Positions 7,304 through 31,185 of a stretch of DNA of 33,983 nucleotides are shown in pieces. Both the position numbers and the translations under genes were made by a program. A model generated the notes under the pieces. That model made no database searches. It saw nothing but the letters and a program-made list of their open reading frames with translations, and was not told the DNA's origin. The stretch spans positions 1-33,983 of the IMG/VR virus record IMGVR_UViG_3300044631_002249; one strand, written 5' to 3'. The stretch comes from a virus. The stretch's first letter is position 1. Every line of letters starts with the position of its first letter.

Positions 7304-7322
7304 GGCAAGAGGTGATTTATAG
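7302..7322 (+). CDS. Possible 6-codon leader ORF before the large fibre gene
   Basis: ATG 7302 overlaps the upstream TAA (TAATG). Six codons (MARGDL) end at TAG 7320-7322, which overlaps the fibre gene's GTG (TAGTG). The fibre's AGAGGTGA ribosome site lies inside this mini-ORF. It may couple translation across the junction, or it may be chance. Confidence 0.25.
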   Translation: MARGDL

Positions 7323-9340
7323 TGGCAGCAGAGAATATTGATAACACGCCTAACGGTGATGGACTTTTCAATACCAAAATCCCTGGCCTTTCAGATGCAG
7401 CAGATATTCAGGCAGCCTTAAGACTTTATCACTATGGATCTTACACCTATGATGGTGCAAATACAAACACATCACTTCTTTTGGAAGACTCAATTGCAAA
7501 GCACCTTCAGAACCTTGTAGATGCAGATGCAGAAGAGGTAGTAAATAGAAATGCTGCTATTGCTACACATAATGCAGATACTCTAGATGTCCACGGAATA
7601 CCAAACACAGCACTACTTGCAACAACGTCTTATGTAGACTCAGGTATTGCAAATGCTATTGCTGGAGCAGTAGGCGGTTATAATGAACTTGCTGGAGACG
7701 GAATTGACTGGAACATTGTAGATGAAAGGTTTGACCTTAACTATTTATCAACGGTATTAGAACAAACATCTAATTTTTCTTTATTGCCATCATATGCAGG
7801 AAGCACACAACTACTTTCTACGTCATCAGCAATTACACTTACAGTCCCCAAAAATTCTACAACAGCGCTTCAGGTTGGATATAAAATTGATTTAATTGAG
7901 TACGGAACAGGAACAACAACTATTACTCCAGAAATCGGAGTTACAGTTAATAGCAAAAGTGCAAGAATGTATCTTGATGGACAATATAGTAAAGGAACCT
8001 TGTTAAAGGTTGGAACAGATGCTTGGGTTTTTTATGGAGATGTTTATGAAAATATTGCAACTCCAACTCCTGTAGCACCTACACCAGTGCCTGCTGCACC
8101 TACACCAGTACCAGTTGCTCCAACCCCTATTCCTACATCACCAACACCAACACCTGTTGCACCCGTTGCACCTACACCAATTCCTACAACACCAGTTGGA
8201 CCAACACCAGTTCCTGTAACACCAGTTGCTCCTGTAGGACCAACTCCTACTACACCTGTCGCACCTGTCGCACCAATAGCAACAACAGGAACAGCATACA
8301 TTTCGTATTGTTACCAAGGATCTCCAGTACAGGAACAATTTACAGTTGACGCAAACAATGTTGTAACTACTGACATTGGAAACGCATGTTCTGCATATGC
8401 TGCTGTAGTTTCTGGACTTCCAGGCGGAGGCGGAACAAATTACTCTTGCTCAACTACTTCAATGCCTTCTGCGCCAAGTAATTGTCCTGCAGTCCCTACA
8501 ACACCAACACCAGTTCCTGCAACCCCAGTTGCTTGTACACCAAACGTTGACAGTTACACTGAATACCGTGCATCTTGTAATGCAGTTGTTACAATTTACG
8601 TTGACTCTTGTGGAAATGAAACATTTGAATGTCCTAATCCTGTAGCACCTACTCCTGTACCTGCAACACCTGTAGCATGTACACCAAATGTTTCTAACTA
8701 CACAGAATACAGAGCATCTTGTGGTGGACCAGTTACAATTTACGTAGACTCTTGTGGAAACGAGACATTCACATGTCCTTCACCAACACCAATACCAGTT
8801 CCAGTCCCAGTTCCTGTAACTCCAGTAGCATGTACACCAAATGTTTCTAGTTATACTGAATATCGTGCATCTTGTGGTGGACCAGTTACAATTTATGTAG
8901 ACTCTTGTGGAAATGAGACATTCACATGTCCTTCACCAACACCTGTACCTGCATCACCAACACCTGTACCTGCATCACCAACACCTGTACCTGTATCACC
9001 AACACCTGTACCTGCATCACCAACACCTGTACCTGTGACACCTGTAGCATGTACACCAAATGTTTCTAGTTATACTGAATATCGTGCATCTTGTGGAAGA
9101 TCTGTAACTATTTACGTTGACTCTTGTGGAAATGAATCATTTACATGCCCTGAGTCGCCAGTTCCTGCAACACCAGTTCCTGCAACACCAGTTCCTGCAA
9201 CACCAGTTCCTGCAACACCAGTTCCTGCAGCACCAACACCTACAGCACCAACACCTACAGCATCTTCTGGTTATGTGTGCGGTGACGCTACATGCGGTGG
9301 AGAATTTGGTGACTGTTCAACAGGAGACTGCTACGAGTAG
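7322..9340 (+). CDS. Large modular tail fibre with four Cys modules and Pro/Thr linkers
   Basis: 672 residues, GTG start with an AGAGGTGA ribosome site. Residues about 80-100 carry a HN-DTLDVHGIPNTALLAT module, and about 119-140 carry AGDGIDWNIVDERFDL; both recur in the fibre at 20095. Residues about 243-320 and later segments are Pro/Thr/Val linkers (PTPVP, VPATP). Four 36-residue modules (403-438, 451-486, 502-537, 575-610) each have four cysteines: VACTPN..SYTEYRASC..., IYVDSCGNETFTCP. A single copy occurs in the protein at 22134. The C-terminus is also Cys-rich (CGDATCGGEFGDCSTGDCYE). The layout suggests disulfide-stabilised knobs on flexible, possibly O-glycosylated stalks. Receptor binding is inferred. 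Confidence 0.7.
   Translation: MAAENIDNTPNGDGLFNTKIPGLSDAADIQAALRLYHYGSYTYDGANTNTSLLLEDSIAKHLQNLVDADAEEVVNRNAAIATHNADTLDVHGIPNTALLATTSYVDSGIANAIAGAVGGYNELAGDGIDWNIVDERFDLNYLSTVLEQTSNFSLLPSYAGSTQLLSTSSAITLTVPKNSTTALQVGYKIDLIEYGTGTTTITPEIGVTVNSKSARMYLDGQYSKGTLLKVGTDAWVFYGDVYENIATPTPVAPTPVPAAPTPVPVAPTPIPTSPTPTPVAPVAPTPIPTTPVGPTPVPVTPVAPVGPTPTTPVAPVAPIATTGTAYISYCYQGSPVQEQFTVDANNVVTTDIGNACSAYAAVVSGLPGGGGTNYSCSTTSMPSAPSNCPAVPTTPTPVPATPVACTPNVDSYTEYRASCNAVVTIYVDSCGNETFECPNPVAPTPVPATPVACTPNVSNYTEYRASCGGPVTIYVDSCGNETFTCPSPTPIPVPVPVPVTPVACTPNVSSYTEYRASCGGPVTIYVDSCGNETFTCPSPTPVPASPTPVPASPTPVPVSPTPVPASPTPVPVTPVACTPNVSSYTEYRASCGRSVTIYVDSCGNESFTCPESPVPATPVPATPVPATPVPATPVPAAPTPTAPTPTASSGYVCGDATCGGEFGDCSTGDCYE
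8528..9151 (+). repeat. Four dispersed 108-nt Cys-module repeats
   Basis: Copies at 8528-8635, 8672-8779, 8825-8932 and 9044-9151 encode the 36-residue four-cysteine module. Copies 2 and 3 are nearly identical at the nucleotide level; copy 1 is the most diverged. A fifth, more distant copy lies at 22881-22988 in another fibre gene. Confidence 0.9.
8936..9040 (+). repeat. Five tandem 21-nt repeats (PTPVPAS)
   Basis: Units begin at 8936, 8957, 8978, 8999 and 9020 and differ by one to a few bases. They encode the linker between Cys modules 3 and 4. Confidence 0.9.
9161..9235 (+). repeat. Five tandem 15-nt repeats (VPATP)
   Basis: GTTCCTGCAACACCA is repeated four times from 9161 and followed by a fifth copy with one change (9221-9235). 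In frame, encoding a Pro/Thr linker just before the Cys-rich C-terminus. Confidence 0.9.
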
Positions 9341-9373: not shown

Positions 9374-9787
9374 ATGTACGCATGCATAGTTAAAAATAGT
9401 CAAGACACCTGGGATGTATTTAGCGTGTTTACAGATATTCCTGATGCAAAAAAAGAAAGAGTTGATTTTGCACTAGAAAGTGGACTCCCTATTGTTGGCA
9501 AAAATTTAACAGACTTTGGCTCATCTGTTAGAAGTGGCGCTATTTGGGACGGTACAAAGTTTAACGGAGGAGATCCTACATCAATTACAGAGGGATCGAT
9601 AAGAGGACAGTATTCGTATATTTGTGACGACATGATAATCCTTACAATTATAGGACAGCCAAATACTGAAAAAAATGAACAACTAATATCAATATTCGAA
9701 AGTGAAACAACACTTATAAAAGTTCCAGAAGGCCAGACAGCAAATGTCGGTGATATTTGGAACGGTACAAACATTATTAACATATAA
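9374..9787 (+). CDS. Hypothetical 137-residue protein, probably virion-associated
   Basis: ATG with AAGGAG seven nt upstream. The protein has two similar short motifs, SGAIWDGTKFNGG (about 54-66) and VGDIWNGTNIINI (C-terminus), resembling the W-D/N-G-T patterns common at the ends of phage tail fibres and chaperones. No catalytic motif is evident. It sits between the large fibre gene and the zinc-binding gene. A fibre-tip or fibre-assembly role is only a guess from position. Confidence 0.4.
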   Translation: MYACIVKNSQDTWDVFSVFTDIPDAKKERVDFALESGLPIVGKNLTDFGSSVRSGAIWDGTKFNGGDPTSITEGSIRGQYSYICDDMIILTIIGQPNTEKNEQLISIFESETTLIKVPEGQTANVGDIWNGTNIINI

Positions 9788-9800
9788 GGAGATACAGAAC

Positions 9801-10028
9801 ATGTCAAAGTGGGAAGAATGGAAGCAAGCCCAAGGCGAGACTAAGCCATGGCACATGCTTGACCCAAACAAATATGTAGAGAATGAGGAGTTAGCATCTT
9901 CTAGAATGGCAATATGCAGGGCTTGTCCAGAACTAATAAAATTAACTAAACAGTGCAAAAAGTGTGGATGCCTAATGCACTTAAAGACTAAACTAGAAGC
10001 AGCAACATGTCCGATTGGGAAGTGGTAA
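9801..10028 (+). CDS. Small zinc-binding protein (CxxC...CxxC)
   Basis: 75 residues; ATG 9801 has AAGGAG 13 nt upstream, whereas the longer frame start at 9744 overlaps the previous gene. The C-terminal half ICRACPELIKLTKQCKKCGCLMHLKTKLEAATCPIGKW has six cysteines in a CxxC-x(n)-CxxCxC...C pattern ending CPIGKW. This matches a family of small proteins common in cyanophage and actinobacterial viral genomes, of unknown function and presumed to bind zinc. It stops 2 nt before the next start, suggesting coupling with the oxygenase-like gene. Confidence 0.65.
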   Translation: MSKWEEWKQAQGETKPWHMLDPNKYVENEELASSRMAICRACPELIKLTKQCKKCGCLMHLKTKLEAATCPIGKW

Positions 10029-10030
10029 AA

Positions 10031-10621
10031 ATGAAAGATGCTTTTTTATTAAAAAATATATTTCCAAAGCACGAACATACAAACTTGCAAAATTTAGCAA
10101 TGCATTTGTGGGCAACACAAAAAAACACATTTGAGCCAGGATTTGGAAGACACCAGTGGGCAATATGGGACGGAACGCATGGAGAAAACATTGAACCCCT
10201 AAGAAGGTTTCATGAAATGCTACTTCCTTTAGCAAGAGAAGAGTTTGAATCAAACACACTAGTTCCTTCTTGGTGTCTTCTTAGTATTTATGAAACAGAT
10301 CAGGCAAGACTCTGGAAACATGTTGACGATAACGCCTGTACATATCATATCAACTATACAATTTTTCATAAGACTCCTTGGGATTTTTATGTTGAGGGCG
10401 AAAAGTTTCAGCCTGAAGAAAATGATGCAGTTTTTTCATATGGTAATGATCAACAGCACTGGAGAGAAGAGTTTCCAAATCCAGAAAATAATTTAGTAGC
10501 AAATGCATTTTTCTTTTATACAGAACCAGACCATTGGTTCTTTAAGCATGGACCTCAATATCTATACACAGATATTCGTAAAACGATTACCACTGAAGAG
10601 CCAAAACAAGAAATGATGTAG
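10031..10621 (+). CDS. 2OG-Fe(II) dioxygenase-like protein
   Basis: 196 residues from ATG 10031, which avoids a 22-nt overlap created by the in-frame ATG 10007. LWKHVDDNACTYHINYTIFH (about residues 96-115) contains the H-x-D iron-binding motif (HVD) on the expected strand. FSYGNDQQHWREEF supplies a later His, and the region between has the alternating strand pattern of a double-stranded beta helix. Known relatives hydroxylate prolines, nucleic acids or small molecules using 2-oxoglutarate. A C-terminal Arg for 2OG binding is not certain. The fibre genes nearby are very Pro-rich, so prolyl hydroxylation is one attractive but unproven role. Confidence 0.5.
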   Translation: MKDAFLLKNIFPKHEHTNLQNLAMHLWATQKNTFEPGFGRHQWAIWDGTHGENIEPLRRFHEMLLPLAREEFESNTLVPSWCLLSIYETDQARLWKHVDDNACTYHINYTIFHKTPWDFYVEGEKFQPEENDAVFSYGNDQQHWREEFPNPENNLVANAFFFYTEPDHWFFKHGPQYLYTDIRKTITTEEPKQEMM

Positions 10622-11653
10622 ATGAATAAGTTATTTTTTCAACTATATAATCCAACAGGCTTAATTAATCAAGTTATGAGCCTTGAACTGGCATCTGGTC
10701 TTTCTCATGAATTAAACGCTCCAGCAATAGTTCATTACGCAAGGTATGGTGCAGACCCAAAACTTTATAACACTAAAACTATTCCTATTTTTACTCCAAG
10801 TAGATTTTATAACAAGCAAAGAGAAGGATTTACAGATCCAGAGCAGTATCCTCATCTTTTAGACCTTCTAGACTTTAACGAAAATCTAATATTTATTGAT
10901 GAAAAAATAGATAGTTTTAAGCAGGAAGAATTTGTAATTGATGATATTTTAAATAATTTTTATTATAGTAACAAGCCAGAAATTTCTGATGATGAAAAGT
11001 TTTTTGCAGAAGGAAGAAAAAGACTTCCTCTAGATAAAACGCTTCATCTAAAACTAACTTTAGGATGGTACTCAAGATTTTTTTATGACAGAAGCAAAAG
11101 TCTTGACAAGGCAATATCATCAGTTAAGTTTAAAAAAGAATACGTGGACTTAGCAAACAAGATATATTATTCTATTGGACAATTTCAAGGCATGCATTTA
11201 AGGTTGTCGGATCATGTTCACATGTTTGAAACCAAGCAAGAAATGTTTGAATCGTGGCTAGATAGGTTTGCACAAAATAACCTTCCAATAGTTGTTTCAA
11301 CATGCCAGCCAGGTCACCAGATGGTTCAAGAAAACAAGCATAGGTTTATATTACTAGATGAATATATTGTAAACAATTTTAGAGATGAATTTATGGCACT
11401 TCCATTCCAGGATGAGGTAGTTTTTGGACTTATTTGTAATTTAGTAATGCATAATGCAACAAATTTTGTTGGAACTCCTGGAAGCACATATACTGCCTAT
11501 ATACACAGAAATAGACATCAAAAAGGAATTGAAACATGGGATTTCTTTGATAATTCTAAAAAAGCAATTGGAAAGCCATACTCTTGGAATGAATATCCTA
11601 TTGACAACGGAAAAAAGATGTGGTGGAGAGAATGGCCAGAGTCAATATGTTAA
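10622..11653 (+). CDS. O-fucosyltransferase-like glycosyltransferase
   Basis: 343 residues; ATG directly follows the upstream TAG. The N-terminus PTGLINQVMSLELASGLSHELNAP (about 11-34) matches the G-x-x-NQ-x-x-S-L-E-x-A-x-x-LA-x-x-LN motif of the GDP-fucose O-fucosyltransferase superfamily. HLRLSD (192-197) matches the HxRxxD nucleotide-sugar motif. FVGTPGSTYTAYIHRNR (about 282-298) matches the C-terminal (F)VG-x-x-ST-x-x-x-x-I-x-x-x-R motif. These enzymes use GDP-L-fucose or related GDP-sugars. The same cassette encodes a GDP-mannose 3,5-epimerase, whose product GDP-L-galactose is 6-hydroxy-GDP-L-fucose and so a plausible donor. The acceptor is unknown. Confidence 0.65.
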   Translation: MNKLFFQLYNPTGLINQVMSLELASGLSHELNAPAIVHYARYGADPKLYNTKTIPIFTPSRFYNKQREGFTDPEQYPHLLDLLDFNENLIFIDEKIDSFKQEEFVIDDILNNFYYSNKPEISDDEKFFAEGRKRLPLDKTLHLKLTLGWYSRFFYDRSKSLDKAISSVKFKKEYVDLANKIYYSIGQFQGMHLRLSDHVHMFETKQEMFESWLDRFAQNNLPIVVSTCQPGHQMVQENKHRFILLDEYIVNNFRDEFMALPFQDEVVFGLICNLVMHNATNFVGTPGSTYTAYIHRNRHQKGIETWDFFDNSKKAIGKPYSWNEYPIDNGKKMWWREWPESIC

Positions 11654-11658
11654 AAAGA

Positions 11659-11724
11659 ATGGTATATAAATTTAAAATGTGGAGAAAATATAGAAAAATA
11701 AAGAAAGGGCATGTTATCTACTAA
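11659..11724 (+). CDS. Possible 21-residue basic leader peptide
   Basis: ATG 11659 to TAA 11722-11724, overlapping the next ATG by one base (TAATG). The peptide MVYKFKMWRKYRKIKKGHVIY is strongly basic. An extended-10-like TGG-TATATA (11660-11668) lies within it, 8 nt before an in-frame ATG at 11677, so a leaderless 15-residue version is also possible. It may couple translation to the SGNH gene, which has no good ribosome site. Confidence 0.3.
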   Translation: MVYKFKMWRKYRKIKKGHVIY

Positions 11725-12674
11725 TGCTATTTGACATGTTCAATCCAAGAGTAATTCCAAATCACCTAATTGATAAGAACAATCCCAAAAAAGACTATTC
11801 TCACACAACAGAAGTGTTAGCAGTTCATGCTGAAATACCAAGGCCAGAATATGACTATAAATGGAACAGTGATGACTTAAGGTCTATAGAGTTTTCTACA
11901 AAACCACCAATCGTTGCTCTAGGCTGCTCTATAACGCTTGGGCAAGGCATGCCACAGGATCTTAGGTGGACAGACTTACTCTCTTCTCGCATTGAGGTTC
12001 CTATAGGTAATATATCTTATTCGGGTGCTGCTGCGAATAAACTTGTTTCAAGTTTTTTTGGAATGATTCATCAATATCAATATAAGCCAGAAATTGTTAT
12101 TGCTCATTTTGCTAATTTCGAAAGATTTTATTTTGTTTCGCCAGATGGAGACAGAATGCAGGAGTGGTTTATTAATCATAAGCCAAAAAAGACAAAAGTT
12201 TCTGCCCCTTGGGACTATGAAGAGATACTCCCGTATGAGTGGGTTTACTATCAAAACCTTGATCATATAAAAATGTTAGAAGCATTTTGCGAATCAAACA
12301 ACATAAAACTATACTGGTCGTGTTGGTCAAATGGTCTGACTGATGATCAAGAAGAGTTTCTAAAAAATAACTTTAGACACTATGTTCCAGATACAACAAA
12401 AAAAGAGTTTGCCCCACACTTTGAGTTTCTTGTTAATCCAAAAAATATTGATGCTTTGCCTCCTCATTATGAGATGATAAACTGGCAGGGATGCCATAAA
12501 GAGTACAAGGATCAGTATCCAGAAATATTTGATTATGCTTACGATTACCACAAAATTGCATATGATTATGGAAGATCTGGTAAAGGGCCTGGCGCACATT
12601 GGCCACACCCTGGGCTTCATAAGCACCTGCATATATCGGAGTTTTGGGAAAAACAGATATCGCCAATACTTTAA
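11724..12674 (+). CDS. SGNH/GDSL-hydrolase-like protein (second copy)
   Basis: 316 residues. IVALGCSITLGQGMPQDLRWTDLL (about 56-79) is an SGNH block I (G-C-S-x-T-x-G-x-G). IGNISYSGAAANKL resembles the glycine block, and GPGAHWPHPGLHKH near residue 295 could provide the terminal His. The gene at 3019-3906 has the same block I, position and length, so the two look paralogous, though diverged. In sugar clusters such proteins often remove or transfer acyl groups. It lies between the fucosyltransferase-like gene and the GDP-mannose epimerase, so acting on the transferred sugar is a reasonable inference. Confidence 0.55.
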   Translation: MLFDMFNPRVIPNHLIDKNNPKKDYSHTTEVLAVHAEIPRPEYDYKWNSDDLRSIEFSTKPPIVALGCSITLGQGMPQDLRWTDLLSSRIEVPIGNISYSGAAANKLVSSFFGMIHQYQYKPEIVIAHFANFERFYFVSPDGDRMQEWFINHKPKKTKVSAPWDYEEILPYEWVYYQNLDHIKMLEAFCESNNIKLYWSCWSNGLTDDQEEFLKNNFRHYVPDTTKKEFAPHFEFLVNPKNIDALPPHYEMINWQGCHKEYKDQYPEIFDYAYDYHKIAYDYGRSGKGPGAHWPHPGLHKHLHISEFWEKQISPIL

Positions 12675-12684
12675 AATATTGCTA

Positions 12685-12690
12685 TATACT
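12685..12690 (+). promoter_or_regulatory. Possible -10 box for the epimerase gene
   Basis: TATACT at 12685-12690 in the 42-nt gap before the epimerase ATG at 12717, which has a GAGGA ribosome site. No TG extension and no clear -35, so weaker than the other promoters here. Confidence 0.35.
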
Positions 12691-12716
12691 TTGATTAAGA
12701 GAATTGTGAGGAATAA

Positions 12717-13748
12717 ATGAAGACAGCATTAGTTCTAGGAGCAGGTGGCTTTATAGGTAGCCACATGGTAAATAGGTTAAAGTCAGAAGGATACTGGGTT
12801 AGAGGTGTTGATTTAAAGCATCCAGATTTTTCAGAAACACAGGCAGATGAGTTTATCGAAAGAGATTTGTCTGTTTATGAAAATGTTGAAAAGGCTATTC
12901 AGTTTAAGGGATATCAGGGAAACTTCTACAATGAAATTCCATATAAGTTAATTACGGGGTTTGACGAGATTTATCAATTTGCAGCAGATATGGGTGGTGC
13001 TGGATATATCTTTACTGGAGACAACGATTCTCAAATTATGGAAAACTCTGCTTTAATTAATCTTAATCTTCTTAGAGCGCAGTCAAGACTTAACGAAAAA
13101 TATGAAATCAATAAGACCAAAATATTTTATTCAAGTTCTGCCTGCATGTATCCAGACTACAAACAGTTAGATGTTAATAACCCTGGACTTAAAGAATCTG
13201 ATGCATACCCTGCAGATCCTGATAGCGAGTATGGATGGGAAAAGTTATTTAGTGAAAGAATGTTTTTGGCATTTAATAAAAATAACAAGATACCAGTAGC
13301 AATTGCTAGATACCACAACATATATGGCCCAGAAGGAACTTGGGACGGTGGAAAAGAGAAAGCACCTGCTGCAATGTGTCGAAAAGTTATAAAAGCAGAT
13401 GATTCTATAGAAATCTGGGGGGACGGAGAACAGACTCGTTCATTCTTATACATAGATGAATGCATAGAGGCAACAAGAAGACTTATGCAGTCTGACTTTA
13501 AGGGTCCAGTCAATATTGGATCTGAAGAGATGGTTACTATCAATCAGTTGGTTGACATTGCTTGTAGCATAGAGGGTAAGGTTTTAGATAAGAACCATAT
13601 TCCTGGCCCACTAGGTGTTAGAGGAAGAAATTCCAATAATGACTTGGTTAGAAAAGAATTAGGCTGGGACTATTCTATGACCTTAAAAGAAGGAATTAAA
13701 AATACCTATCTTTGGATTAAAGATCAAATAGAAAAGCCCCAGCACTAA
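12717..13748 (+). CDS. gme: GDP-mannose 3,5-epimerase
   Basis: 343-residue extended short-chain dehydrogenase/reductase. GAGGFIG (8-14) is the NAD-binding loop and YGWEK (172-176) the YxxxK pair. Family-specific segments are unusually well kept: FAADMGGAGYIFTGDN, SSSACMYP (139-146), RYHNIYGPEGTWDGGKEKAPAAMCRK, IWGDGEQTRSF, VNIGSEEMV, PGPLGVRGRNSNN. Cys143 and Lys215 keep the 72-residue spacing of the plant enzyme's catalytic Cys145 and Lys217. It converts GDP-D-mannose to GDP-L-galactose (and GDP-L-gulose) in the cytosol. A stretch of extra residues near 62-80 precedes the FAAD strand. It neighbours a fucosyltransferase-like enzyme that could use the product. The stop lies 1 nt from the convergent lysozyme gene. 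Confidence 0.85.
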   Translation: MKTALVLGAGGFIGSHMVNRLKSEGYWVRGVDLKHPDFSETQADEFIERDLSVYENVEKAIQFKGYQGNFYNEIPYKLITGFDEIYQFAADMGGAGYIFTGDNDSQIMENSALINLNLLRAQSRLNEKYEINKTKIFYSSSACMYPDYKQLDVNNPGLKESDAYPADPDSEYGWEKLFSERMFLAFNKNNKIPVAIARYHNIYGPEGTWDGGKEKAPAAMCRKVIKADDSIEIWGDGEQTRSFLYIDECIEATRRLMQSDFKGPVNIGSEEMVTINQLVDIACSIEGKVLDKNHIPGPLGVRGRNSNNDLVRKELGWDYSMTLKEGIKNTYLWIKDQIEKPQH

Positions 13749-13749
13749 C

Positions 13750-14313
13750 CTACTTAGGGAATTTAGACATCCAGAACTTAGTTCTTGGGGTCATGCCTTT
13801 CCAGGCAGTCCAGTTTTCTCCACCGTTGCTCATGTGGTGTGCAATTTGTGCATTTAAAACTGGGTTAAAAAGTTCAGCATTTGCAGATAACTCAAACTTG
13901 TCTCTACGATCAGGGCCAAGCGAGTCAATCATATTTATCTGGAATATTCCGTATGAGGAGTCTCCAGTGCTTTCATTTCCGTTAAAAGCCAATGGGCGAC
14001 CATTAGACTCTTTCTTTGCTACAGCCCAAGCCTCAACAAGGTTCTGGCCCTTAAATCCAACCAGGGATAGCATTTTCTTTAGTTCTAAGTCAGTAAGAGA
14101 TGTCTTGTTTGCAAAACTCTCCAACATTTTTTCCTTAGAAACCAAAAAAACCTCTTTCGAGGTTGTGTCTACTGTCTGAGCCTGTTCAAGGCTAAGGTTG
14201 TTCTTTGTACTTAGTTCTGGTGTAGCATTAGCAGCATTAGAAAATACACTGACAAGTGCCACGATACTGAGTGTGCTAATGATCTCTTTGTTTCTTTCGA
14301 TAAATTTAATCAT
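13750..14313 (-). CDS. Secreted lysozyme/lytic transglycosylase-like protein
   Basis: 187 residues from minus-strand ATG 14313, which has AGGAGG at 14324-14319. The frame is open upstream to 14370 but that would include the promoter. Residues 1-30 are a Sec signal peptide (basic start, hydrophobic STLSIVALVSVF, cleavage after ANA). Residues about 86-187 are a lysozyme-fold domain: AVAKKESNGRPLAFN with likely catalytic Glu102, then GDSSYGIFQINM (117-128), the ES...S.GIFQIN pattern of SLT/resuscitation-type enzymes. It should cleave peptidoglycan outside the membrane. It could be the endolysin or a host-derived wall enzyme. It is the only minus-strand gene in the fibre region. Confidence 0.75.
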   Translation of the reverse strand: MIKFIERNKEIISTLSIVALVSVFSNAANATPELSTKNNLSLEQAQTVDTTSKEVFLVSKEKMLESFANKTSLTDLELKKMLSLVGFKGQNLVEAWAVAKKESNGRPLAFNGNESTGDSSYGIFQINMIDSLGPDRRDKFELSANAELFNPVLNAQIAHHMSNGGENWTAWKGMTPRTKFWMSKFPK

Positions 14314-14342
14314 AGTTTCCTCCTTAGAAAACAATAACACCC

Positions 14343-14360
14343 TGGTAGGTGTTACTACCA
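14343..14360. promoter_or_regulatory. Perfect inverted repeat at the lysozyme transcription start
   Basis: TGGTAG-N6-CTACCA (14343-14360), a 6-bp perfect dyad, lies immediately downstream of the minus-strand -10 box, over the expected start site. It is either an operator for a repressor or a 5' hairpin in the leader. Confidence 0.5.
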
Positions 14361-14390
14361 AGTATAACATAAAATTATGTCAAAAGTCAA
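14361..14390 (-). promoter_or_regulatory. Promoter of the lysozyme-like gene
   Basis: On the minus strand TTGACT (14390-14385), an 18-nt spacer and TATACT (14366-14361). This is one of the few -35/-10 pairs in the window. It lies back to back with the plus-strand promoter at 14401-14409. Confidence 0.65.
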
Positions 14391-22133: not shown

Positions 22134-23648
22134 ATGTCAAAGCAAGCAGGTAGAATGAGTCAGTCGGCAAACGACTTCTTAGAACCAAAGGCACCAATTA
22201 ATGTTGTTGCAACAGACGTAGGAACAAATCGTCCATTCAACAACGGAGCAGCATCAGTTGCTTTTGAACTACCAGCAGATTCTCCTGCTGCTTCGTCATA
22301 CACAGCAACATCAAGTACAGGACAAATAGCCACAGGTCTATCTTCTCCAATTGTTGTACCTGGAATTGCATCAGGAGCAACTGCAACATTTACTGTAACA
22401 GCAACAAATGCTTCAGGAACTTCCCCAGCATCAGTGCCTTCACTACCTGTACCTATAACAACAGTTCCAGCAACACCATCTGCACCAAGTGCATCAACTC
22501 AGGTCGGTCAAGACAACGTTTCCTGGTCAGCACCAGCAAATGGTGGAAAAGCAATAACAAACTATTTCTGGGCATCTAGCGATGGAAAGAGTGGAAACAC
22601 ATCTTCTACATCAGTAGGTGTAGGTCAAGAAATGGGTTCATCACAAACATACACAGTTCGTGCAGATAACCAAAATGGAAGTTCTGGAACATCGTCTTCA
22701 TCAGGAAGCGTTACAACAGCATTCTCATTTGTTCCATTTGGTTTTACACCATTTGGATTTGTTCCTCTGCCACAGCCAGTGCCAGTACCACAGCCAGTAC
22801 CAGTGCCACAGCCAGTACCACAGCCAGTGCCACAACCAATTCCCGTGCCAGTACCACAGCCAGTACCAGTGCCAGTGCCAGTCGCATGCACAAATAATTA
22901 TGCTTATACCGAGTATCGTGGTTCTTGTGGAGCATCAGTTGCTATTTACGTAAACTCATGTACAGGAGCAGAATCATTTACATGTCCTCCGCCACCATTC
23001 GGTGCCTTCGGAGCCTTCGGTGCATTCGGTGCATTCGGAGCCTTCGGTGCATTCGGTGCATTCGGTGCATTCGGTGCATTCGGTGCCTTCGGAGCATTCG
23101 GTGCATTCGGTGCCTTCGGAGCATTCGGAGCATTCGGTGCTTATGGATTTACGCCATCTGGTCCAAAGTCTGTGAGTGTAAATACATTAATCTTAACTAC
23201 AAACGGATACACTCAAGCATCTAATCTTCAAGTAGGAGATGTTCTTGTTTCTACAGAGGTTCCTGGACTAGGGACGAACTTTACAATGCAAGATGTTCAG
23301 AATTGGGAAGGGGATCCACAAGATCTTTCTATGTTCCCTGATAAAGAAACAACGATCATGCATATAGGAACATCAACAGCACAAGAGTCTGTGTCTATAA
23401 ATGGTGAGTTCTATTCAGGGTCTCACTACATGCTCGTAAAAAGAGACGGTATAGCCAAGATGATTGCATCTATTGATCTATTAGAAACAGATGAACTCTG
23501 GTCAACAGACAATAACTCTTGGGTACCTATTACTGAGTTAATTATCTCTTACCTTCCTCATCAAGTTGTATCTATCAACTGTGAACCTTATGATATGTTC
23601 TACACAGATCATTTCTTGGTTTACGACGGATATCAAACAGAAGAATAA
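22134..23648 (+). CDS. Fibre protein with Fn3-like, Cys, FGA-repeat and Hint-like domains
   Basis: 504 residues. About 25-110 and 112-190 look like fibronectin III-type domains (SAPSASTQVGQDNVSWSAPANGGKAITNYFWASSDG). About 210-249 is a PQPVPVP linker. Residues 250-285 are one copy of the four-cysteine module of the 7322 fibre. Then 16 Phe-Gly-Ala triplets (289-336). Residues about 346-504 resemble a Hint (hedgehog/intein) fold: SVNTLILTTNGYTQASNLQVGDVLVS fits block A with Ser in place of Cys, YSGSHYMLVKRDGIAKMIASIDLLETDELWS fits block B with its His, and VVSINCEPYDMFYTDHFLVYDG fits the C-terminal block but lacks the usual His-Asn. It could self-cleave or have become structural. Confidence 0.6.
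   Translation: MSKQAGRMSQSANDFLEPKAPINVVATDVGTNRPFNNGAASVAFELPADSPAASSYTATSSTGQIATGLSSPIVVPGIASGATATFTVTATNASGTSPASVPSLPVPITTVPATPSAPSASTQVGQDNVSWSAPANGGKAITNYFWASSDGKSGNTSSTSVGVGQEMGSSQTYTVRADNQNGSSGTSSSSGSVTTAFSFVPFGFTPFGFVPLPQPVPVPQPVPVPQPVPQPVPQPIPVPVPQPVPVPVPVACTNNYAYTEYRGSCGASVAIYVNSCTGAESFTCPPPPFGAFGAFGAFGAFGAFGAFGAFGAFGAFGAFGAFGAFGAFGAFGAFGAYGFTPSGPKSVSVNTLILTTNGYTQASNLQVGDVLVSTEVPGLGTNFTMQDVQNWEGDPQDLSMFPDKETTIMHIGTSTAQESVSINGEFYSGSHYMLVKRDGIAKMIASIDLLETDELWSTDNNSWVPITELIISYLPHQVVSINCEPYDMFYTDHFLVYDGYQTEE
22998..23141 (+). repeat. Sixteen tandem 9-nt repeats (Phe-Gly-Ala)
   Basis: TTC-GG(T/A)-GC(A/C/T) repeated 16 times without interruption in the coding frame of the Hint-containing fibre. 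Third-base variants are shuffled among units, typical of repeated slippage. It encodes a 48-residue hydrophobic low-complexity segment. Confidence 0.95.
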
Positions 23649-27468: not shown

Positions 27469-30400
27469 ATGTCTAGTCCTTCAAACCTATATGCCGAAAA
27501 AGTCTTTGCTGAGCATCCGACTGGTCTATGGGCGTTGGACGATAAGGCAGACTACGTTTCTTTAATTTCAGAGCCCCAAAGAAATCTTTCAAATTGGGTT
27601 GTAACTGGTGGCACTTATCAGCCATACACGCAGTCGGTAGATGAGCCATTTATAAACAGTTATGTAGGTAAAATAACTGCAACACCAACAGAAGAAGAGT
27701 CTTCATCCATAATTGCAGTAAGTAATGACATTATGGATTTAAAAGACCTTAATAAATATCTTAGAACATTTTCGGTAGGAGGATATTTTTATTCTGAAAG
27801 TGCTTACATATCTGGTTTTGAAATTGGGTATCAGTACACAGACACAACAAGTGGTCAAAATATCACACACTTAAAAAACTACGATACAGTAATAAACAGC
27901 AACTGGATTTTTATATCAGAAACATTTGACACTCCTCCAGACGATACAAAGTTAAGGCTTGTTTTTAAAATAAATTTTATAGGTGGATCAGAAACAGAGG
28001 ATGTGTTTTTAGTAAACGGAATAAGTCTTGGTCAGTGGTCAGAAGAGTTTTCTTCCACATCTCTTGGAGTTACTACAATAGACATTCCTTCTTACATATC
28101 TATATCTCCACAAAAGGCCGTAGTTGCAAAGTGCTACGGATTACAAGACTTAGATGCCTACTATTTAGTTTCTGAGAACATGCTTAAAGCAAAAAATTCA
28201 GGAATTCCAATTGTTTATGGAACTTCTGGACTTACAACGCTATACCCAAACGGAGATAACCCTTCTCTTATAGTTCCTGGGGTTGGAATGTTAAATGAGT
28301 CTGGCAAGTTTAAACAATACACTTTTGAGACATGGCTAAGAATAAACTCTTATAGTAACGACAGGAAAAGAATTATTGGTCCACTTGGTTCACAAGATGG
28401 AATTTATGTGGACGGACCATCTATAGGGCTAAAAGTAGGAAATGAATATAGTGCATATTATGTTGGTGAATGGACAAGGCCAATGCTGGTTCACCTGCGT
28501 GTTGGAAAAGATACTGCCTCTCTTGTTATAAATGGTCAAGAAGTTATATCTTTAAACTATTTAACAGACTCTCTTTATTTGCCATCGATGCTAGATGCAA
28601 ACGGAAAAGATCAAGACTGGATAGGATTCTATGCATATGATGACATATACCCAATAGAGATAGACTGTGTTGGAATTTATCCTTATATTGTAGCAACTGC
28701 AGTTGCAAAAAGAAGATTTGTTTTTGGTCAGGGTGTAGATATACCAGAAAACATTAATACCTCTTACAGCGGAACATCTGTATTTATTGATTATTCCTTT
28801 GCCGATTACTCTTCAAACTATTCTTATCCAAAAATTGGTTCTTGGAATCAGGGGTTTAGCGATAATGTGTCTACTGTCAATAGGTCTCTTTCTGTTTTGT
28901 CTCATCCACTTCCAGAAATAGTTTTGTCATCAAGAACAGAAAAAGAACTATTTTTAGATTGTAAGACCGTACAGCCAACAGACACGAGAGAGTTCTTTTC
29001 TTTTAGGCCAAACTCTTCATGGAATTCTGTTTCTGGATACATGTTCTTTAAAAACTTTGACTTTATAAATACACCAGTTTCTGCTTTCTATGGCTGTTTT
29101 AGGTTGCCACAAACATCTACGTCCGCTCAAACACTTTTTAGAATTGAAAAAGAAAACACAGGAAGTTATTTTTTAATACAATTATTAAATAATCAAATAT
29201 CTTACATAATAAACTATAACGGAATTTCAGAAACTATTTACTCTCCAGTAGTAGGAGAACCAGGAGAACTTGTTGATGTAGGTTTAAATATTCCACGGTT
29301 TGTATCAAGATTTGGAAATCCAGCATCAGACTTTTTTGGTTCTTTGTCAGACCTGAGAATGTATGTCGGAGGAGACAAAAATGGACTATCAACATTTACT
29401 GGTAAAATTTATAATGTAGGAATATGTACGGAATACAATTTTCAAAAAATTAGAACACTGTTTAATGAGATAGGAGTTCCAATTTGGAATGAAGATCTGT
29501 TTGCTATTTATCAAAATAATCAATTAATAAACGTGGACGGAGGAGTAGACACAACGTCTATGCCACCTTATGGAGGAACAACAGACACAGCAAACGGAGC
29601 AATTTCTGGTGGTGGTGTCATAATCCTTGACGAGGACTACCTTGTTGATCATATTGCAAGTTATACACTTTTGCCAGATACAGTTTTTGACACATACAAA
29701 CTTACAGTCTCTGCAAGCGCATACTGGGAAGATCAACTACCTCTAACATATTTTGCAGAGTCCGTTCTTGATAAAAGAGGCGACCAGTATTTTGATCTTG
29801 ACTTTATTCAGTTTAACATAGACTACCCAATACCTTCAAAAACAATTGCCATAGAAACAAAGCCAGAAAGTTGGACCTATGCAGAGTTGGCAAATGAATA
29901 TGGCCTTCCAGTTCAAAGAACATACGAGTCGCTAGATAACTACTTGTTTACTGGATACAATGACTACGAAGATTTAAAAAATAAAATATCAAAAGATTAT
30001 CGTTATGATACGGACGGAGCAAATATAAAAACATATGTAACATTTCAGTACACAGAGTTGGGAGCAAATCAAACTTATTTTTATTTTACAAAAACAGAAA
30101 GACCATCAAGGAATGGGGTGCTAATCCCTGGCTCAGACTGGATGACAACAAAATACGAAGTTGTAGACAACATGATTATATATCCGCCATCAGGTGTAGA
30201 TTTTAATGATTTGTCAATTGTTACACATATAGAGATGAATGTTAAAAACTCAGAAACAAACAACGTTTCAATTAAAAAACTTTCATATGCCTCACAAGCA
30301 CTTAACGAATCTGATGCAAGCCCTATTGGAACAAGATTTGGAACATCGATTTATCCATATACAAAGACTGGAATTTATTATGATTTTAAAAGAAATAATC

Positions 30401-31185
30401 CTTTTGCAATCTATACTGGATCATCTCCATATTTATATCTAACCAAAACCAGCGGAATTCAATTAAAGGGAAAGTATGACCCTCTAATAAATAGAGGGCT
30501 TATGATTCCAGTAAACGAAAGTAGGTCTGAAGGATTTAAGGTTATAGCAATGCAAATGGCTGTTAGGTTTGATGGAGACTATTTCCCTTATGCCCCAACT
30601 CAAATATTTGAGGTGCAAAGCAAAGACTCTTACATAAAATTTTATATGGTAGCAAGTGACCCTTCTGGACGAAGAGCAAAAATATATGCAATAGATGCAA
30701 ACACAGGACTTATTCAAAATGGTATTGGATTTTATTGGAATGGAAAGGTAGTAAAAGAGCCAGTAATAACTCTTCAGGAGTGGGGATTCCTTGGAATCAA
30801 TTTCTCAAGCAGTCTAAACTTTTCATTTTTTGAAGGAGCCGTAAGATTAACAGGACCACTATTATTTAATAGCATTTCTTACTATCAATCTACCAACCTG
30901 CAAGAAGTTCAGAACATAGCAGAAAGACCATGGTTCAGAGTAAAGGTTTTGGGATCTTATGAACTTGACTGGGAGTTCTGGGATAGTGGGTCGTTTAACT
31001 GGAATAAAGTCTTAGTTTTGTCAGAAACAAGTTATTATGGTGTCAATCCTTCAGACGTATACAAGAGTTATACGGGAACAAATAAGATAATTGTGGATGA
31101 TGATAGGCCTATTAGTTTTGGAGAATACGCATATACCATCTTTACAGATGTAAATTGGAACCAGTTCGTACAAGATCCAGTGTAA
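27469..31185 (+). CDS. Giant tail protein with LamG/concanavalin-like domains
   Basis: 1238 residues, the largest gene here. Residues about 285-365 (KQYTFETWLRINSY...RIIGPLGSQDGIYVDGPSIGLKVG...VHLRVGKDTASLVINGQEVISLNY) fit a LamG-type jelly-roll. About 495-670 repeats a similar layout (GYMFFKNFDF..., SYFLIQLLNNQISYIINYNGISETIY). The C-terminal third is also beta-rich (FKVIAMQMAVRFDGDYFPYAPTQIFEVQSKDSYIKFYMVA). The start LYAEKVFAEHPTGLWALDD resembles openings of LamG-bearing phage proteins. These domains bind carbohydrates, so it may be a tail-associated receptor-binding or baseplate protein. No peptidase or lysin motif was seen. Confidence 0.65.
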   Translation: MSSPSNLYAEKVFAEHPTGLWALDDKADYVSLISEPQRNLSNWVVTGGTYQPYTQSVDEPFINSYVGKITATPTEEESSSIIAVSNDIMDLKDLNKYLRTFSVGGYFYSESAYISGFEIGYQYTDTTSGQNITHLKNYDTVINSNWIFISETFDTPPDDTKLRLVFKINFIGGSETEDVFLVNGISLGQWSEEFSSTSLGVTTIDIPSYISISPQKAVVAKCYGLQDLDAYYLVSENMLKAKNSGIPIVYGTSGLTTLYPNGDNPSLIVPGVGMLNESGKFKQYTFETWLRINSYSNDRKRIIGPLGSQDGIYVDGPSIGLKVGNEYSAYYVGEWTRPMLVHLRVGKDTASLVINGQEVISLNYLTDSLYLPSMLDANGKDQDWIGFYAYDDIYPIEIDCVGIYPYIVATAVAKRRFVFGQGVDIPENINTSYSGTSVFIDYSFADYSSNYSYPKIGSWNQGFSDNVSTVNRSLSVLSHPLPEIVLSSRTEKELFLDCKTVQPTDTREFFSFRPNSSWNSVSGYMFFKNFDFINTPVSAFYGCFRLPQTSTSAQTLFRIEKENTGSYFLIQLLNNQISYIINYNGISETIYSPVVGEPGELVDVGLNIPRFVSRFGNPASDFFGSLSDLRMYVGGDKNGLSTFTGKIYNVGICTEYNFQKIRTLFNEIGVPIWNEDLFAIYQNNQLINVDGGVDTTSMPPYGGTTDTANGAISGGGVIILDEDYLVDHIASYTLLPDTVFDTYKLTVSASAYWEDQLPLTYFAESVLDKRGDQYFDLDFIQFNIDYPIPSKTIAIETKPESWTYAELANEYGLPVQRTYESLDNYLFTGYNDYEDLKNKISKDYRYDTDGANIKTYVTFQYTELGANQTYFYFTKTERPSRNGVLIPGSDWMTTKYEVVDNMIIYPPSGVDFNDLSIVTHIEMNVKNSETNNVSIKKLSYASQALNESDASPIGTRFGTSIYPYTKTGIYYDFKRNNPFAIYTGSSPYLYLTKTSGIQLKGKYDPLINRGLMIPVNESRSEGFKVIAMQMAVRFDGDYFPYAPTQIFEVQSKDSYIKFYMVASDPSGRRAKIYAIDANTGLIQNGIGFYWNGKVVKEPVITLQEWGFLGINFSSSLNFSFFEGAVRLTGPLLFNSISYYQSTNLQEVQNIAERPWFRVKVLGSYELDWEFWDSGSFNWNKVLVLSETSYYGVNPSDVYKSYTGTNKIIVDDDRPISFGEYAYTIFTDVNWNQFVQDPV

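Follow-up and report, generated by a model that had tools for sequence, protein, structure and literature searches.

Why a virus should carry candidate enzymes for an L-galactose-type sugar among its fibre genes is the question raised by the 33,983-base virus record IMGVR_UViG_3300044631_002249 (IMG/VR), analysed here over its whole length (the window). Four genes on the + strand, for a 2-oxoglutarate (2OG)-Fe(II) oxygenase-like protein, a fucosyltransferase-like enzyme, an SGNH-like protein and a putative GDP-mannose 3,5-epimerase (GME), lie there between two blocks of fibre genes. A preliminary description, made from the letters alone, had named this cassette and proposed either the phage's own fibres or the host surface as acceptor. 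At one site downstream of a Pro-rich fibre several modules replace one another, and the cassette is one of them, a point missed by that description. We give slightly better than even chances to the reading that the phage uses this exchangeable cassette to decorate its own neighbouring fibre.

Layout of the locus

7322..9340, + strand: fibre or minor tail protein; repeats rich in Pro/Thr/Val, four Cys-rich modules (PHROG, composition); proposed acceptor
9374..9787, + strand: 137-residue protein (open reading frame, ORF, with weak PHROG matches; kept in some relatives)
9744..10028, + strand: small Cys-rich protein, DUF6171/phrog_13558 like (ORF, family matches)
10031..10621, + strand: protein of predicted 2OG-Fe(II) oxygenase fold, HxD...H intact (alignment, model, Foldseek, VIA)
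10622..11653, + strand: fucosyltransferase-like GT-B glycosyltransferase (GT), predicted O-FucT superfamily fold (profile and predicted structure)
11724..12674, + strand: SGNH/GDSL-like protein, optional cassette member (conserved blocks, sub-cut-off Pfam match)
12717..13748, + strand: putative GME, candidate supplier of GDP-L-galactose/GDP-L-gulose (sequence, active-site residues)
13750..14370, - strand: SLT/lysozyme-like protein, downstream border, outside the cassette (PF18896, 2.2e-15)

The four cassette ORFs were present and intact where they had been placed, the first starting at 10007 or 10031, with the Pro/Thr-rich fibre 7322-9340 on one side and the next fibre block from 14417 on the other. 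Their spacing was operon-like: the oxygenase and transferase genes abut (gap 0), and the remaining neighbours overlap or lie at most 70 bases apart. The cassette genes were found again in dozens of viral contigs, and the arrangement is therefore not due to chance.

The epimerase

Compared with the PDB, the product of 12717-13748 matched plant GMEs over its full length (E 3.7e-96; GME entry 8sg0, 2e-93). A better match to another short-chain dehydrogenase/reductase (SDR) was looked for, and the closest non-GME member followed far behind at E 2.5e-22. In NCBIfam the protein stayed far below cut-off for GDP-fucose synthase, dTDP-glucose dehydratase and others (25 models listed of 27). Alignment with the Arabidopsis enzyme (2c59) equated C143, K215 and R304 with C145, K217 and Arg306. 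Among the distinct phage GMEs covering each position, the catalytic C143 was kept in 82/82, K215 in 84/84 and R304 in 84/84; the role of the Arg and the enzyme mechanism are treated in an excerpt of PMC6678494. The cofactor motif GxxGxxG is present as GAGGFIG at residues 8-14 (G8, G11 and G14 in 80/80), as are the upstream Ser (S140, 82/82) and YxxxK (Y172, 83/83; K176, 84/84), and at position 141 the phage sequences have Ser (62) or Thr (20). Plant and bacterial GMEs (2c59; MfGM35E, PMC6678494, excerpt) share these motifs and catalytic residues; their roles lie in ascorbate or cell wall, antibiotics or lipopolysaccharide (LPS), whereas the window gene is a phage accessory gene. We assign 12717-13748 with high confidence as a GME, in line with the preliminary description, and formation of GDP-L-galactose and GDP-L-gulose by the enzyme is very likely.

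The statement that no well-described phage example exists did not hold. Cyanophage S-SCSM1 was annotated in 2022 with a GME and fucosyltransferases (PMC9602691, excerpt), and GME relatives are common in marine cyanophages. The search of phage records gave 145 matches, 38 of them above 60% identity, and the 37 of these 38 that were listed belonged to cyanophages or unannotated marine viruses. Some relatives are labelled UDP-glucose 4-epimerase or nucleotide-sugar epimerase in their records, probably a recurring mislabel. On a quick tree without a mixture model the phage GMEs formed two separate groups, the label needing 3 changes, at least 2 of which were forced by well-supported branches.

The fucosyltransferase-like enzyme

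As a single sequence, the product of 10622-11653 had no match above threshold in family libraries of the Pfam, PHROG and NCBIfam type, and it missed the curated cut-off of Pfam O-FucT (PF10250; 12.6 vs 31.5 bits). A profile made of the window sequence and 29 relatives reached POFUT2 in the PDB at 3.8e-4, in an alignment that spans 155-322 and stops short of the N-terminal part, where the catalytic Glu of POFUT2 (E54) sits. Weak PF10250 matches (E<=1) were obtained for 22/30 family members, the best at 2.9e-4. The AlphaFold model (pLDDT 85.3, pTM 0.88) gave 47 Foldseek matches at E<=1e-3, all of them GDP-fucose transferases, with modest TM-scores of 0.34-0.51 by query. In VIA, where absence of a family was not counted as evidence, POFUT2 scored Z 16.8 over 263 residues at 4.3 A, the 43 top rows were POFUT2, POFUT1, NodZ, AtFUT1 and FUT8 (Z 16.8 to 11.3), and the first unrelated fold was GT9 (Z 9.1).

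The fold is shared with these enzymes over nearly the whole chain, at 8-16% identity in structural alignments. Residues H192, R194, D197, F282, G284 and T289 were invariant in 30 sequences and form HxRxxD and FxGTxxST, aligning with HLRRKD and FIGTSVST of POFUT2; we take HxRxxD and the C-terminal FxGTxxST to be motifs of the GDP-fucose-transferase GT-B superfamily. A GDP-sugar transferase fold is predicted with high confidence, and the modelled enzyme is a fucosyltransferase-superfamily member by fold but not a PF10250 member by cut-off. The fucosyltransferase-type fold named earlier was accordingly present when checked by structure prediction.

None of 58 pattern matches was confirmed as a relative in bacterial genomes. 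In phage records tblastn found no relative at 1e-2, yet the profile still recognised gp259 of S-SCSM1 (45 bits; PF10250 1.1e-15). With POFUT2 as the nearest fold, thrombospondin-like modules were considered as the transferase target and rejected: TSP_1 matches were weak, and the Cys modules in the window matched nothing of the kind. Stretches resembling thrombospondin repeats occur in a few fibres (loci L108, L295, L336, L093 and L099), with TSP_1 at E 0.0088 in L108 and none in 9 other fibres scanned.

The oxygenase and the SGNH protein

The oxygenase motif HxD...H corresponds to H105, D107 and H151 (numbered from the Met at 10007) and was invariant in a 32-sequence alignment. The model (pLDDT 90.9) had a bacterial prolyl 4-hydroxylase as its top Foldseek match (1e-7) and VIA Z of 14.4-16.5 to several 2OG oxygenases; the best structural matches include bacterial prolyl 4-hydroxylase and human PHD2, with SnoN and BesD-like enzymes tying with them. 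Pfam support was weak (2OG-FeII_Oxy_2 in 5/32 members, best 0.0019; none for the window protein). The modelled double-stranded beta-helix fold of a 2OG-Fe(II) oxygenase is clear, which together with HxD...H bears out the label given before. The start proposed at 10031 is plausible: in the 8 nearest distinct relatives the corresponding Met served as start, giving 196 residues, but the relatives' starts were taken at the ATG nearest the match and 10007 is also possible. The oxygenase may itself be part of the decoration, which the preliminary description had not considered.

An assignment of phrog_2954 as ferrochelatase was ruled out, the predicted fold being that of a 2OG oxygenase. The 'ferrochelatase' gp260 of S-SCSM1 is likewise a 2OG-FeII_Oxy_3 protein (1.9e-17), without a match to the window oxygenase profile. 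Annotation of 2OG-oxygenase relatives as ferrochelatase in phage records is probably a recurring mislabel.

In the SGNH protein a GCS block with S69 and an H295-P-G block were invariant in 12 sequences. The Asp of block V (DxxH) is absent, a His replacing it in the window protein by eye. Lipase_GDSL_3 was matched by 9/12 sequences at E<=1 (best 0.013), and the window protein missed the Pfam cut-off (13.9 vs 27 bits). The earlier label of SGNH esterase-like protein is thus plausible from the Ser and His blocks but weak, and the protein is perhaps a sugar O-acyl esterase or transferase.

Pairing of epimerase and transferase

Does the transferase use the epimerase product? In a scan by GME alone (best 80 of 416 loci, neighbours within 4.5 kb), a fucosyltransferase-like neighbour was found in 77/80 loci, 68 of them O-FucT-like and 9 GT11-like only, a weak label. 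In the 3 loci without it the sequence stops on the transferase side, at a distance of 143 to 1,185 bases from the GME. For L079 and L091 this is the end of the contig; for L053 it is a break within the contig, and the transferase lies beyond it, in L033; tblastn detected a transferase fragment in L053 and L091. Among distinct GMEs with 2.5 kb flanks on both sides (from 32/80 loci) the transferase was present in 22/22 (21 O-FucT-like, 1 GT11-like only), and in the fibre scan described below the same restriction gave 10/10 (8 O-FucT-like, 2 GT11-like). In the reverse direction, two sets of transferase loci contained GME in 45/48 and 76/80, the remainder being fragments or having, on one side or both, no more than about 2.3 kb of sequence beyond the transferase.

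The pair occurred in at least four gene orders (oxygenase-transferase-SGNH-GME, oxygenase-GME-transferase-SGNH, oxygenase-transferase-GME and GME-transferase). Identities were uncoupled: GMEs about 90% identical accompanied transferases of 32-44%, and GMEs of 54-56% accompanied transferases of 57-81%. Three SDRs at the fibre site that are not GMEs (74-96 bits) sit with other GT types, and so does a fourth (L296, 87 bits), where the flank is too short. Above cut-off, neither GMD nor GDP-fucose synthase was found in any of 12 large contigs of the group, which are possibly incomplete, so that these phages do not visibly make GDP-fucose.

The near-complete pairing across two GME lineages, the company kept by non-GME SDRs and the lack of visible GDP-fucose genes make GDP-L-galactose the most economical donor, and the window transferase probably uses the GME product. 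The preliminary description had asked whether the pair is conserved together in other phage contigs, and it is. The transferase might instead use host GDP-L-fucose or another GDP-sugar, with the GME serving some other need and the two brought together only by a site that accumulates sugar genes. GDP-fucose is the classical donor of O-FucT enzymes, and the host could supply GMD and GDP-fucose synthase. Such a donor would leave the pairing, maintained over two lineages and several gene orders, and the association of other epimerases with other transferases to coincidence, and we consider it quite unlikely.

Interchangeable modules at the fibre site

The fibre 7322-9340 matched PHROG tail, virion and unknown families over residues 103-243 and has 89 Pro and 24 Cys in its last 422 residues; its N-terminal part had no match in phage records. 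A scan with this N-terminal part, of which the best 80 of 275 viral stretches were kept, revealed different modules between the fibre and the next fibre. These were the window type; 2OG-GME-GT11-like; 2OG with a GT8-like gene; 2OG-GT61 (3e-15); a Cys-rich protein-PF11397 fusion (5.1e-38); and radical SAM with an SDR. Sulfotransferase-like genes also occur at the site. In L032 a carbamoyltransferase gene (10035-11477, 1.8e-54) lies inside the cassette, between SGNH and GME; S-SCSM1 has one near its O-FucT. The fusion protein (L286 7607-8794) joins a small Cys-rich DUF6171-like protein to the PF11397 GlcNAc-transferase domain. This hints at a role of protein 9744-10028 in binding the same acceptor. 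PF11397 corresponds to the GT60 family, which includes the hydroxyproline-Skp1 enzyme.

In a post hoc partial Mantel test, transferase distance followed the composition of the fibre C-terminus when the fibre N-terminus and GME were controlled for (r 0.34, p 0.004; 23 loci with all parts, 19 after removal of near-identical transferases, with the L132 and L045 fibre ORFs lacking a Pro-rich part and the fibre possibly split there). The plain GT-GME distance correlation was 0.01, and GME against fibre composition gave r 0.20, p 0.10.

Under a stricter search, limited to the 3 kb upstream of the cassette, 30/45 loci had a Pro/Thr-rich ORF; among the other 15, several had Ala-Pro-Val or Phe-Thr-Pro repeats instead. 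In L323-L329 and L331 the fibre seems to be split into a 252-residue ORF and a separate Pro/Thr-rich ORF, perhaps through a programmed frameshift or a real split, and L101 has a Pro/Thr-rich ORF of the same kind. The fibres of L093, L099 and L104, with Phe-Thr-Pro repeats, contain PASTA domains (E down to 1.6e-17) and stand beside GME and transferase. GME was found in 25/56 loci with Pro-rich and 0/8 with Pro-poor fibres (p 0.018; distinct loci 13/36 vs 0/4, p 0.28). That GME always tracks Pro-rich fibres was rejected as a rule, L093 and L103 being Pro-poor with GME.

With the module placed immediately after the fibre gene, other modules taking the same position in related phages and transferase distance following fibre C-terminal composition, the fibre 7322-9340 is a reasonably probable acceptor. 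The first of the two acceptors named in the preliminary description is thus made reasonable by linkage and module exchange. The second would have the cassette place L-galactose on a host surface glycan, such as a cell-wall polysaccharide or glycolipid, for example to block superinfection. Comparable S-SCSM1 genes have been read in this way (PMC9602691, excerpt), cell-wall modification is among the roles suggested for glycosyltransferases of acI phages (PMC10202952, excerpt), and transferases of the same fold (NodZ, FUT8, AtFUT1) act on glycans too. It fits poorly with a module that sits inside the fibre block, is exchanged there and has a transferase type tracking fibre composition, and a priming GT, GtrA and Wzx were each found in 0/12 large contigs, which may be incomplete; we consider this reading unlikely. 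Protection of phage DNA is also among the roles suggested for acI phage glycosyltransferases (PMC10202952, excerpt). Glycosylation of phage DNA by the cassette enzymes is nevertheless highly improbable, given a fold that is that of protein and glycan fucosyltransferases and a transferase that, at a fibre-linked site, changes together with the fibre, although no search aimed at base-modifying genes was made.

Oxygenases and Pro-rich fibres

Local 2OG genes were counted in the plain fibre scan, from which 16/80 loci were dropped for an incomplete fibre or less than 4 kb downstream. They were found in 54/56 loci with Pro-rich fibres vs 1/8 with Pro-poor ones (distinct loci 34/36 vs 1/4, p 0.0039), the Pro-rich cut-off of 0.26 having been chosen after inspection of the table. 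A pool of 97 distinct loci gave 79/81 vs 3/16 (Fisher 1.2e-11). For this pool 26/238 loci were dropped (less than 3.5 kb downstream or a short N-terminus) and duplicates then removed, and part of it came from a radical-SAM scan, which enriches one module type.

Proposed pathway and its difficulties

The pathway may be pictured as follows: The epimerase would convert host GDP-D-mannose to GDP-L-galactose, with GDP-L-gulose as by-product, as its family and active site suggest. The fucosyltransferase-like enzyme would then take GDP-L-galactose as donor, to which fold and pairing point, and transfer its L-galactose, which is L-fucose with a 6-hydroxyl. The acceptor would be the Pro/Thr-rich fibre with Cys modules just upstream, as linkage suggests. 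For the 2OG oxygenase the probable role is hydroxylation of residues within the fibre repeats, prolines perhaps; the SGNH protein probably tunes sugar acylation. Such a sugar coating could shield exposed fibre repeats or alter their binding.

Several observations weigh against decoration of the fibre. The association of Pro-rich fibres with 2OG genes was not significant after control for kinship (4 pairs, p 0.25; in a second test the 4 on well-supported branches, median p 0.125), the pairs being few, all in the same direction and none opposite. Loci L093 and L103, with Pro-poor, Phe-Thr-Pro fibres, keep GME and transferase with neither of the two 2OG families represented locally, so that hydroxylation is not required for transfer. 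Other modules, with no GME, accompany 31/56 Pro-rich fibres. The large relatives (G001-G012) have 1-12 PF13640 2OG oxygenases per contig. Among transferase labels, GT11-like (Pfam GT11 in 2/5 members, best E 0.036, no relevant PDB match) and that of a third transferase, FTL20 (NodZ, E 0.1), are weak. S-SCSM1 has 2OG, O-FucT and GME, and the Pro/Thr-rich filter retained no ORF over the 31 kb searched; a fibre of this kind is therefore not needed for the enzyme set. Host glycans or DNA are further possible targets of soluble transferases.

The number of PF13640 genes per contig exceeds what one fibre would seem to need. In L073, by contrast, 2OG genes are present, and the repeats are of the Ala-Pro-Val type, poor in Thr and Ser (5% and 6%). 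A transferase using Thr/Ser or hydroxylated Pro as available fits L093, L103 and L073, in small numbers.

In eukaryotes, prolyl hydroxylation and hydroxyproline glycosylation occur together in plant hydroxyproline-rich glycoproteins and Dictyostelium Skp1. The phage site resembles these systems in having a 2OG oxygenase and transferases beside a Pro-rich substrate, and a PF11397 domain in relatives; hydroxyproline is present there, whereas the phage fibres are known from their genes. We tentatively propose, as an idea that stays doubtful overall, that aquatic actinobacteriophages make plant-like hydroxyproline-rich glycoproteins. The 2OG oxygenase would hydroxylate the Pro-rich fibre, interchangeable modules (GME and O-FucT-like for L-galactose, the PF11397 type for GlcNAc, GT61 and others) would glycosylate it, and one swap site would set the fibre coat.

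The phage group

WhiB was found in 10/12 large contigs, and in the control set in Corynebacterium only. Streptomyces phages had the closest portal (49%), and the closest ribonucleotide reductase (61.5%) was that of Actinomycetia phage DSL-LC01, a lake phage whose host was assigned by prediction (PMC10611076, excerpt). On these affinities the group, the longest contigs of which are 100-120 kb, most likely consists of freshwater actinobacteriophages. With such a host an LPS target is unlikely.

Relation to known systems

S-SCSM1 (NC_070962) is a close parallel in gene content. An excerpt of PMC9602691 lists GMD, GDP-fucose synthase, GME, O-FucT, alpha-1,2-FucT and NodZ and reads them as cell-wall genes. 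Like the window it has GME and an O-FucT, there placed between 2OG oxygenases, with a carbamoyltransferase and more; unlike the window, GMD, GDP-fucose synthase and many GTs are also present. Mycobacteriophages Che8, Corndog and Myrna have their own virion proteins glycosylated by phage-encoded transferases, as told in an excerpt of PMC12363180. The likeness lies in phage transferases acting on the phage's own virion proteins, reported there and suggested here by genes, and the excerpt names no pairing of GME with a fucosyltransferase-like enzyme. In a search of the open-access literature (subscription papers and preprints outside it), none of the titles and abstract starts listed dealt with a fibre-linked module. 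GME with fucosyltransferases in a phage is already known, and the fibre-linked modular arrangement is the new part.

A Baltic Sea virus survey put galE in third place by abundance among water-column auxiliary genes, with prolyl 4-hydroxylase similarly abundant and its viral use cryptic (PMC9301287, excerpt). The cassette would explain these two puzzling gene types, which are frequent in aquatic phages. Epimerases and 2OG oxygenases are here united in an exchangeable locus next to a Pro-rich fibre, and labels of the galE type are common among phage GME relatives in public records; we infer that the Baltic genes may be of this kind. If the fibre is the acceptor, such epimerase and 2OG genes would be tools for coating the virion and not metabolic helpers. 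Should the hydroxyproline-glycoprotein proposal be true, the cryptic P4HA- and galE-type auxiliary genes of aquatic viruses would be parts of such modules.

Other genes of the window

Between ribonucleotide reductase and portal, 27469-31185 encodes a 1238-residue protein with no Pfam or PHROG match at the thresholds used. A further fibre-like protein (22134-23648) has Pro-rich repeats, a Cys module resembling that of 7322-9340 and a long Gly-Ala-Phe repeat. The repeat is followed by a stretch that looks Hint/intein-like by eye, with no Pfam family at E 0.01. By eye, the L106 and L115 fibres have similar Hint-like tails.

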